Shown here: piece after piece, positions 6,271 through 8,711 of the stretch
Numbering within the stretch: the stretch's first letter is position 1
Layout: the number at the start of each line of letters is the position of its first letter
Virus record (IMG/VR): IMGVR_UViG_3300003885_000080
Coordinates: 1-25,416 of that record
DNA length: 25,416 nucleotides
From: a virus
Reading direction: 5' to 3' (one strand)
Made by a program: the position numbers and the translations under genes
Notes under the pieces: model-generated
What the model was told of the DNA's origin: nothing
Seen by the model: the letters and a program-made list of their open reading frames with translations, nothing else
Database searches by the model: none

Positions 6271-6343
6271 GCGGGTATGTACAAGGCGTACCGTCGGCCC
6301 TCCAAGCCGTACAGCCAGGGTTCGACTCCCTGTATCCGCTCCA
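6271..6343 (+). tRNA. tRNA-Gly (anticodon UCC), with encoded CCA
   Basis: Acceptor stem GCGGGTA (6271-6277) pairs with TATCCGC (6333-6339), with discriminator T and an encoded CCA at 6341-6343. The T-arm is canonical: CAGGG-TTCGACT-CCCTG (6316-6332). The anticodon loop CCTCCAA (6299-6305) reads UCC, as in bacterial glyT, with a 4-bp stem CGGC/GCCG plus a T.T mismatch. Position 33 is C instead of the near-universal U. The D-stem GTAC/GTAC encloses a 5-base loop AAGGC, and only one base separates it from the acceptor stem. It is therefore a compact, somewhat divergent tRNA. Confidence 0.82.
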
Positions 6344-6467: not shown

Positions 6468-8711
6468 ATGTCCACATTAAAAATAGATACCGCCAGAGTC
6501 TTTACGCCACTCCTACAGCCGAGTCGTTATAAAGGATTATGGGGGGGAAGGGGGTGCGTTCATCCTGACACGCTGATTGACACCCCGGACGGGCAGGTAA
6601 GGATTAAAAACTTTAAGGGGGGTGAGATACACTCTTACCATGAAGGTAAGGTTGTTATTGGAAATGCGACCAAGCCAGTTCAGTATCCCGCCGAGGATTT
6701 ATTCAGGGTGGTGTTTGAGGATGGCCGTGAGATTATTGTAACGGACGAGCATAAGTTCCTTACAGATAGGGGATGGGTTCAATTACAGCACCTTTCCAAG
6801 TCCGACGCTTGCGTCTGCGAGCCTTGTCCAGAGCCTTCATGCCTTCCTCAGACCACTTCGGGCACTTGCCCTTCAGGGTTTCGCGAAGGTGTTCGGCATT
6901 ATTTGAATAGAGTTCAAGATTATCTGGGTGGTTATTTCGGGGATTATCGTCTAAATGATGAACAACTTCTCCCGGCAGAAGATAGCGGCCTAGTTTTTTC
7001 TCAATTACCAAGCGGTGCACAGCCACATAACCGCCATGCTTTGTTTTATGGGGATGGTCGATTACTCTCTGATATAGATGGCCGCTCGTCGTTGTTTTTA
7101 CGCCACCTCGCCAGTTTGGGCGCTCCTCTCTGCGCGGAGGGGAGAAATTATACAGCCTTGGGAAATTATAACGGCGAAAAACCTTCTGGACTGATTTTGG
7201 GGTTACGCCTAATTTTTCTGCTATTTCTCTGGAAAAATACCCTTCTCGTGCCAGGGCTAATATCTGCTTTACTTGTTCGGGTTTACGGCACCCTTTCAGA
7301 TCTAGCTCAAAATCTGAAAAAAGCTCTTGGCAATCTTTTTTACGGCGCTCTCGATAATTCATTGGGTTCTCCTGTTTGTGACCACGACCGACTTATTTTA
7401 AATAAAATTGTCGATATTTGCAAGCACAGCCACCAGCCATATTGGGATTTACACGTACCCATATATGAGAATTATTTATCGAACGGCATCGTTAATCACA
7501 ACTCTGGAAAAAGTCACTTCTTTGCGGAGTCTGCGGTTGAGCATTGCGTAATGGTTTCTGGCGCTCGTGTTGTTTGCGTTCGTGAGGTTCAAAAATCCTT
7601 GAAAGAATCGGTGAAGTTACTGATAGAGGATAAGATTAAGTCCTTTGGACTTCAGGGGTCTTTTACTATTCTCAATGACCATATCGTGACGCCTGGTGGT
7701 GGGATCATCGTTTTTAACGGGATGGCAGATCATACTGCCGAGTCCATCAAGTCTTTGGAGGGGTTTGACATAGCGTATGTTGAGGAAGCCCAGACCCTCA
7801 CTGAAAGGTCTTTGGAGCTTTTAAGACCTACGATTCGTGGATCTGACCGGATGAAGGCACTCGGAAGAAAATCTGAAATTTGGTTTTCATGGAACCCAAA
7901 AAATGAAAACGATGCTGTGGATAGATTTTTGAGAGGCGCTGTTGTCCCCTCCGATAGCATTGTCATAAATTCAAATTATTCAGATAACCCGTGGTTCCCG
8001 GAGGAGCTAAAACAAGAGAGGGAGTTTGACGAAATAAACAGCCCCGGACGGTATGGGCACGTTTGGTTAGGAGAGTATGAACCTCAAGCCGTTGGTGCGA
8101 TCTGGACAAGAGACGTTATTCAGAGAAATCGAAGACAGGAAGCCCCACGATTAGGCAGGATTCTGGTAGGGGTCGATCCCTGTATTTCATCCAAACCGGG
8201 CTCAGATGAAACCGGTATTATTGTCGGGGCGATGGGGCACGATAAGCGCGGCTATGTTTTAGCTGATTTTTCGACTTACGGCACCCCCAGGCAATGGGCT
8301 GAAAAAGCTGTCGCGGCCTATGATTTGTACGATGCCGATGCTATCGTTGCCGAAGTAAATCAAGGTGGCGAGATGGTCGAAAACACCATCCACTCCATTC
8401 GCCCCGGAATTAAAGTCATTCCGGTTCGTGCGACACGAGGAAAACACGTCAGGGCCGAGCCGATTTCAGCGCTGTATAGTCTGGACAGGATCTCCCATGT
8501 AGGCGAATTTCCAAAACTTGAGATGCAGCTTTGCCTGTTTACAGCAGACGGGTATTGCGGTAACGATTCAGCTGATCGAGCAGATGCCATGATTTGGATT
8601 TTTCATGAGCTGTTTCCGAAGATGACTAAAGGGGAAAAAGTCAAGAAACGACCTATGGTAACTAGAGTCAATAATAAGTATTCTCCACACAGAGCCTATG
8701 GAACACGTTGA
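6468..8711 (+). CDS. terL: terminase large subunit, interrupted by an intein in the Walker A motif
   Basis: The ORF encodes 747 aa; removing the intein (residues 30-345) leaves a 431-aa TerL. The N-extein ends LLQPSRYKGLWGGRG and the C-extein resumes SGKSHFFAE, restoring the P-loop GGRGSGKS. Walker B is FDIAYVEEAQ (Glu439/440), the coupling motif is IWFSWNP (472-477), and the RNase H-like nuclease has Asp570 (LVGVDP), Glu629 (AEVNQGG) and Asp706 (DRADAM). TerL pumps DNA into the prohead and cuts concatemers. Splicing is expected to be obligatory, because the ATPase site is split. It lies downstream of TerS and a tRNA; the 3' end overlaps the next ORF by 14 bases. Confidence 0.95.
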   Translation: MSTLKIDTARVFTPLLQPSRYKGLWGGRGCVHPDTLIDTPDGQVRIKNFKGGEIHSYHEGKVVIGNATKPVQYPAEDLFRVVFEDGREIIVTDEHKFLTDRGWVQLQHLSKSDACVCEPCPEPSCLPQTTSGTCPSGFREGVRHYLNRVQDYLGGYFGDYRLNDEQLLPAEDSGLVFSQLPSGAQPHNRHALFYGDGRLLSDIDGRSSLFLRHLASLGAPLCAEGRNYTALGNYNGEKPSGLILGLRLIFLLFLWKNTLLVPGLISALLVRVYGTLSDLAQNLKKALGNLFYGALDNSLGSPVCDHDRLILNKIVDICKHSHQPYWDLHVPIYENYLSNGIVNHNSGKSHFFAESAVEHCVMVSGARVVCVREVQKSLKESVKLLIEDKIKSFGLQGSFTILNDHIVTPGGGIIVFNGMADHTAESIKSLEGFDIAYVEEAQTLTERSLELLRPTIRGSDRMKALGRKSEIWFSWNPKNENDAVDRFLRGAVVPSDSIVINSNYSDNPWFPEELKQEREFDEINSPGRYGHVWLGEYEPQAVGAIWTRDVIQRNRRQEAPRLGRILVGVDPCISSKPGSDETGIIVGAMGHDKRGYVLADFSTYGTPRQWAEKAVAAYDLYDADAIVAEVNQGGEMVENTIHSIRPGIKVIPVRATRGKHVRAEPISALYSLDRISHVGEFPKLEMQLCLFTADGYCGNDSADRADAMIWIFHELFPKMTKGEKVKKRPMVTRVNNKYSPHRAYGTR
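6760..7362 (-). CDS. HNH homing endonuclease encoded antisense inside the TerL intein
   Basis: A 200-aa protein with a helix-turn-helix near residues 37-62 (GYFSREIAEKLGVTPKSVQK) and an intact HNH_3-type core: HRLVIEKKLGR (His116), GEVVHHLDDNPRNN (His135/136), HPDNLELYSNN (Asn148) and EHLRET. The basic C-terminus (ARRRKRRTWKG) is usual for this family. ATG 7362 has AGGAGA (7373-7368) 5 bases upstream, and a promoter-like pair at 7395-7423. It overlaps TerL entirely. Its last ~15 codons lie opposite genuine intein block B coding, while most of the gene fills the block B-F interval. Presumed role: cutting intein-less terL alleles to drive intein homing; it might also act as a stand-alone site-specific nuclease. 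Confidence 0.92.
   Translation of the reverse strand: MNYRERRKKDCQELFSDFELDLKGCRKPEQVKQILALAREGYFSREIAEKLGVTPKSVQKVFRRYNFPRLYNFSPPRREERPNWRGGVKTTTSGHLYQRVIDHPHKTKHGGYVAVHRLVIEKKLGRYLLPGEVVHHLDDNPRNNHPDNLELYSNNAEHLRETLKGKCPKWSEEGMKALDKARRRKRRTWKGAVIEPIPYL
7395..7423 (-). promoter_or_regulatory. candidate promoter for the antisense HNH gene
   Basis: Reading leftward, TTGCAA (7423-7418), a 17-bp spacer and TAAAAT (7400-7395) match sigma70 consensus at 4/6 and 5/6 with ideal spacing. The predicted start near 7388 gives a 5' UTR of about 26 bases containing the AGGAGA RBS. The element lies within the sequence coding for the C-terminal Hint segment (residues 309-319 of the precursor). The match is moderate in an AT-rich patch, so its use is uncertain. 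Confidence 0.45.

Follow-up and report, generated by a model that had tools for sequence, protein, structure and literature searches.

The terL gene in the 25,416-nucleotide stretch of viral DNA analyzed here (the window; positions 1 to 25,416 of IMG/VR record IMGVR_UViG_3300003885_000080) very probably carries, within its Walker A motif, a mobile intein with its homing endonuclease encoded separately, as a helix-turn-helix (HTH)–HNH gene on the opposite strand. On its 5' side, terL has a gene for the small terminase subunit and a tRNA-Gly, and on its 3' side it has genes for a head-tail adaptor, the major head protein, and tail proteins; these terminase, head, and tail neighbors identify the contig, which comes from a bacterial assembly, as that of a tailed phage. 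The tRNA-Gly (anticodon TCC) occupies positions 6271-6343 on the plus strand, directly 5' of terL.

The terL ORF (6468..8711, plus strand) is single and continuous, encoding 747 residues that match Terminase_3 (4e-26), Terminase_6C, Intein_splicing (1.5e-11), and terminase PHROGs, as well as the NCBIfam models for N- and C-terminal intein splice regions (TIGR01445 and TIGR01443). The N-extein (6468..6554) ends partway through the Walker A motif at KGLWGGRG and is followed by a 316-residue intein with a Hint fold (6555..7502) that runs from Cys1 to Asn316 and abuts Ser+1. The C-extein (7503..8711) resumes at SGKS and contains the remainder of the ATPase together with the RNase H-like nuclease domain, with Terminase_3 matched at residues 345-536 and Terminase_6C at residues 568-714. 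The hallmarks of an intein, namely Cys1, TDEH (TxxH), a terminal HN, and then Ser, all occur in one frame. Joining the flanks without the insertion yields KGLWGGRG|SGKSHFF, a Walker A motif that is uninterrupted (GGRGS[GA]KS) in TerL homologues 56-66% identical to this one (L005-L007), and the predicted spliced TerL has 747-316 = 431 residues. The initial annotation had placed Cys1 at 6555, TDEH within the intein, and a VNHN end at 7502 before SGKS, with restoration of GGRGSGKS and a 431-residue spliced product; our coordinates, motifs, GGRG|SGKS insertion point, and predicted size agree with it throughout.

In the AlphaFold2 model of the intein, both Hint halves are predicted at pLDDT 95-98: the N-terminal half (residues 1-90; 6555..6824, plus strand) at about 96-98 and the C-terminal half with the VNHN end (residues 280-316; 7392..7502, plus strand) at 95-98. 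The best PDB match to the fold is the NpuDnaB intein (E 1.4e-7), which also gives a profile match of 3.5e-16. Between the halves lies a sense-frame linker (residues 91-279; 6825..7391, plus strand) that is open but is mostly predicted below pLDDT 50, and this translated shadow of the HNH gene is the region of most antisense coding. Searches of Pfam and NCBIfam found no protein family in the linker. No sense-strand endonuclease was found in this linker, which has no domain match and is modeled as disordered. Large inteins are usually described as two domains fused in one protein; this element does not belong among them, since its endonuclease lies on the opposite strand and there is no in-frame fusion between the Hint halves. 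A split intein, or fractured gene, is likewise ruled out because TerL and the intein form one continuous ORF.

The antisense gene (6760..7362, minus strand), which lies opposite intein residues 69-270, encodes 200 residues from an ATG start to its own stop and matches HNH_3 at 3.9e-11, exceeding the curated cut-off, as well as HNH PHROGs at 7e-28. A helix-turn-helix region spans residues 32-66 (7165..7269, minus strand; HTH_29 at 7e-6, under the curated cut-off), and the HNH_3 catalytic region spans residues 114-155 (6898..7023, minus strand). Residues H116, H136, D138, N144, N148, N155, and H158 are invariant in 63 sequences, with the catalytic His, Asp, and Asn invariant across 58-63 homologues. 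The model of the protein, with a mean pLDDT of 92.6, shows a helical HTH region and then the HNH domain; no fold match among solved structures is significant, the best being the homing endonuclease I-HmuI (E 0.11; profile E 0.03). A Shine-Dalgarno sequence, AGGAG (7369..7373, minus strand), is positioned 6 nt 5' of the antisense ATG. The complete HNH gene proposed earlier, reading from 7362 to 6760, is confirmed. Its proposed ribosome-binding site also stands, but the promoter-like elements proposed with it do not, being no more frequent than chance (2 found versus 3.2 expected); terminator signals for the gene are likewise not above chance. By sequence and fold the element is an intein, and by sequence its antisense product is an HNH endonuclease.

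To learn how far this arrangement extends, we searched for relatives of both of its parts. Scanning IMG/VR with the single HNH sequence returned no relatives, and a degenerate search with an HNH alignment returned at least 403. The initial annotation had called for a search for TerL inteins with an antisense HNH ORF between the Hint blocks. In the best 80 IMG/VR loci selected by HNH, 79 have the HNH ORF antisense inside a 350-1,230-residue ORF with Hint blocks, and the 80th (L118) has a single in-frame stop in the sense ORF. An intein-only search, whose loci share many contigs with the HNH-selected set, gave 71 intact nested elements among 80 loci, along with 7 mini-inteins of 130-154 residues without a whole HNH gene and 2 loci with a broken sense frame; none of these 80 has a sense-strand endonuclease. 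By tblastn the nested arrangement was also found in Pseudoalteromonas phage PHS3 and in eight Pectobacterium Ymer-group phages, including Dickeya phage Setonix, so that nine otherwise complete phage-isolate records have the element within TerL; the terminases are diverged in both of the isolate records examined in full. Members in bacterial genomes come from Enterobacter cloacae DSM 26481, Acinetobacter, a Methylomonas bin, and Escherichia coli MEI003, and prophage carriers include E. coli MEI003 and Enterobacter cloacae. A relative of the HNH protein is also present in the unannotated record of an uncultured 484-kb phage. Searches of actinobacteriophage records found no full-length relative of this HNH protein, and the overlapping HNH and metallophosphoesterase annotations of Streptomyces phage Mildred21 proved to be adjacent genes without nesting.

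The homologous nested loci in phages and IMG/VR rule out a unique local event, and the nested antisense-HNH inteins constitute a widespread, apparently monophyletic class. The 157 copies collected represent 107 distinct inteins, all in one phase, in which the first base of the antisense codon lies opposite the first base of the sense codon. Across members the Hint motifs are nearly invariant, and the exteins are terminases of two families, Terminase_3 and Terminase_6. The insertion site is nearly always Walker A: of the 107 inteins, 91 follow P-loop residue 4 and 7 follow residue 7. The subclade comprising L150, L153, L159, L161, L164, L165, L172, L173, and L183 is inserted three residues later, after GK and before the T/S of Walker A, so the insertion register tracks the clade of the HNH, which is what the specificity of an endonuclease would lead one to expect. 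One antisense-HNH intein (L168 3631-5901, minus strand) is found not in a terminase but in an SNF2-type helicase, again within the Walker A motif (TGLGKS). Extra Hint-like domains at ORF residues 688-775 of L148 (2746-5814, minus strand) and 506-548 of L160 (2590-5880, minus strand) suggest a second intein in each of these terminases.

Selection maintains both the sense and the antisense frame of the overlap. Among 72 distinct homologues, picked for having an enclosing ORF by a filter that lost only 1 of 80 loci, the sense frame contains no stops, where synonymous permutation of HNH codons leads to an expectation of 6.3 per gene, or about 455 over the set. Permuted genes keep the sense frame open about 0.5% of the time, and the other four frames of the 72 genes hold 569-903 stops and are never open. 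In the same phase, free-standing HNH relatives have 52 stops per 1,119 codons and the nested set has 1 per 19,174, this lone stop probably belonging to an additional ORF of L173 that is not nested but entered the count. The sense frame is broken in two members, L270 (equivalent to L118, with one stop) and L299, which could reflect assembly error or real decay.

Substitution rates in the overlap, measured over 43 independent pairs, are 0.205, 0.165, and 0.434 at HNH codon positions 1, 2, and 3, respectively, even though the HNH wobble base is position 2 of the sense codon, normally the most constrained. The terminase part of the ORFs has ordinary codon-position rates of 0.16, 0.105, and 0.467. 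In 42 of these 43 pairs, the translations are more alike when read as HNH than when read in the sense frame. Shine-Dalgarno sequences accompany 50 of 97 first ATGs versus 17 of 286 internal Met codons (p = 2e-21), and by the criterion used, the first in-frame ATG has none in about half of the members. Together, the codon-position bias, the identity excess, the invariant catalytic residues, and the Shine-Dalgarno enrichment identify the HNH protein as the selected product of the overlap, and by the same evidence, the sense reading of this region mainly needs to remain open.

The distribution of alleles shows that the element moves. The inteins of L123 and L127 are 84% identical in Hint and 83% identical in HNH, but their TerL proteins are only 26% identical, and 28 pairs in all are more than 68% identical in HNH yet less than 42% identical in TerL, indicating that Hint and HNH transfer as one unit between divergent terminases. 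Empty, full, and endonuclease-deleted alleles coexist. Intein-free alleles with the extein motif restored include L005-L007 and, in comparison with E. coli MEI003, the uninterrupted terL of E. coli ET729, which is 84% identical to the MEI003 gene; a related terL is present in 782 E. coli genomes, of which MEI003 alone carries the element. At the deleted end of the series, L298 is the L256/L301 element minus 486 nt in frame, with flanks 98% and 89% identical, and L316 is a mini-intein relative of L313/L314. HNH-less mini-inteins of 130-143 residues at the TerL site are found in L297, L309, L311, L315, L316, and L319, and such mini-inteins are possible compact cis-splicing inteins. The initial annotation had named homologues with a degraded HNH gene and a persisting intein as evidence against its reading. 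These do occur, in L298, L316, and others, but alongside many intact copies, and since a homing cycle predicts such a mixture, the model is not refuted by them.

We therefore propose a mechanism divided between the strands. From the sense strand, the whole TerL–intein–TerL ORF would be translated, and the Hint domain would excise itself to restore GGRGSGKS, with the shadow of the HNH gene forming a disordered loop required only to stay open. The HNH gene has a start and a ribosome site of its own, and from the antisense strand it would produce the endonuclease. This enzyme is predicted to make a cut or nick in the Walker A codons of terL genes lacking the intein; repair would then copy the element into the empty gene. 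We infer that the full ORF is spliced, that the antisense gene is transcribed, and that its product cleaves DNA at this site.

Other explanations of the locus fare less well to differing degrees. Long antisense ORFs are common by chance, and an ORF list alone proves nothing, so the antisense frame could in principle be a mere shadow of the sense intein; its HNH_3 homology, confident fold, and invariant catalytic residues, together with the HNH-type codon-position bias and Shine-Dalgarno enrichment, contradict this and leave it with practically no probability. The converse proposal, that the sense intein does not splice and that terL is dead or decaying behind an incidentally open frame, as RefSeq implies for E. 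coli MEI003, can draw on the PGAP call of that terL as incomplete and on the two loci with broken sense frames. It is very improbable against the absence of stops from 72 distinct sense frames where about 455 were expected, the near-invariance of the Hint motifs, the frame retained by the mini-intein derivatives, and the nine otherwise complete phage-isolate records that have the element in TerL. HNH proteins next to terminase genes can function in packaging. The location of this HNH within terL might therefore point to a service to the phage other than homing, such as DNA packaging as in HK97-type phages, for which HK97 gp74 is a precedent (cited in PMC6293099). Yet L005-L007 and ET729 have neither the intein nor such a gene in terL, HNH-deleted inteins persist, HNH moves with Hint between terminases 26% identical, and one copy resides in a helicase, all of which make a packaging role improbable. 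Co-transfer, the empty and deleted alleles, and site specificity argue instead for homing.

A different question is whether reversed HNH genes invaded TerL inteins several times, with the shared phase reflecting constraint rather than descent. The class is deeply divergent, and the HNH tree has only modest support at its base, as several origins might produce. The ease of keeping a frame open fails to predict the phase, however, because in free-standing HNH genes the three antisense phases hold 52, 52, and 33 stops and the phase used ties for the worst. In a tree with free-standing relatives, the nested HNHs fall essentially on one side, with 2 changes (one from a very long branch) against a shuffled mean of 39 and a single change in 68% of bootstraps. 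Several independent invasions are thus unlikely, if less so than the readings above. The single phase in all members and the grouping of the nested HNHs suggest that the nested arrangement most likely arose once, and the constant phase and the HNH tree are explained most simply if a TerL intein captured a reversed HNH gene once, in an ancestor. The initial annotation had read the locus as a composite of a Hint intein and an independent, reversed HNH gene with splicing and homing functions on opposite strands, and the comparative evidence supports it; the annotation had further suggested that the two functions may be expressed at different times of infection. On balance, we lean toward the broader proposal that Hint and a reversed HNH were joined once, long ago, and that the product radiated across tailed-phage terminases and at least one helicase as a previously undescribed class with obligately overlapping antisense endonuclease genes, in which endonuclease expression is decoupled from that of the essential late gene. 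Under this single-joining proposal, endonuclease frameshifts would also disrupt the essential frame that the gene overlaps and would be purged with the host gene, and decay would proceed mainly by missense change or in-frame deletion.

The element resembles several known systems without matching any of them. Inteins located near the P-loop of TerL are well documented. Some group I introns, for example in protist rDNA, carry antisense homing endonuclease genes and are likewise mobile, self-splicing elements with the endonuclease on the opposite strand. The sense strand of an intron may go untranslated, however, whereas here the sense frame must stay open through the whole antisense gene, making the DNA dual-coding. 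Split inteins with an endonuclease gene between their halves, known as fractured genes, also keep splicing domain and endonuclease as separate genes, but here a continuous TerL–intein ORF overlaps the endonuclease gene. Inteins with fused endonucleases include the HintN and HNH_3 intein in the dCTP deaminase of cyanophage CL131 (PMC6293099), and inteins are known in mycobacteriophage TerL (PMC5050341); neither report describes an antisense gene. Our searches also recovered the canonical layout in the anaerobic ribonucleotide reductase of an Erysipelotrichaceae bin (L222 3005-7303, plus strand), with HNH_3 on the sense strand and a weak LAGLIDADG match further on. The CL131, mycobacteriophage, and L222 inteins share with the present element a Hint domain, insertion at an active-site motif, and a linked endonuclease that spreads the element, but in the present class, the endonuclease is a separate opposite-strand gene and the linker read on the sense strand is predicted to be disordered.

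In spirit, the published element closest to this one is ShiLan, a hidden HNH insertion in phage methylases whose HNH gene is read from the strand of the host gene in a different frame and which has no splicing domain (PMC11855218). Its HNH is a distant homologue of that in the window and likewise overlaps an insertion open in the host frame. Membership in the ShiLan type is ruled out, because the HNH gene is antisense in all 107 distinct members and sits inside a full Hint intein. T4-like phages have free-standing endonucleases, including segD, which is antisense to its neighbors (PMC2988022) but lies between genes, neither nested in an essential gene nor linked to a splicing element. A preprint by Gosselin on actinobacteriophage inteins of "non-canonical architecture", cited in PMC11855218 in connection with overlapping frames in phage mobile elements, may, as far as that citation indicates, overlap with the present class. 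Among the mostly non-subscription journal papers searched, none was found to describe an intein with an antisense endonuclease, and the class has apparently been overlooked so far.

Current annotation offers a plausible reason. RefSeq treats the terL of E. coli MEI003 as an incomplete pseudogene and annotates HNH alone, the PHS3 terL is annotated as truncated, and the Ymer HNH has no annotation. The MEI003 gene (L321 2480-4885, plus strand; NZ_CP071263) has VVNSSNPPVKDRVNSMNAMFCNANGERR twice in tandem in its C-terminal TerL region and may therefore carry a small in-frame duplication. The class accounts for the systematic misannotation of both terL and the endonuclease. It shows that splicing and spreading functions can be encoded on opposite DNA strands over long evolutionary times, and it provides more than 100 natural cases of gene-length antisense dual coding, with a distinct asymmetry in which one frame is a selected protein and the other is mostly just kept open. 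The mode and timing of expression of an antisense endonuclease inside an essential gene become testable, and the empty, full, and endonuclease-deleted alleles form a natural series in which to study the homing cycle.
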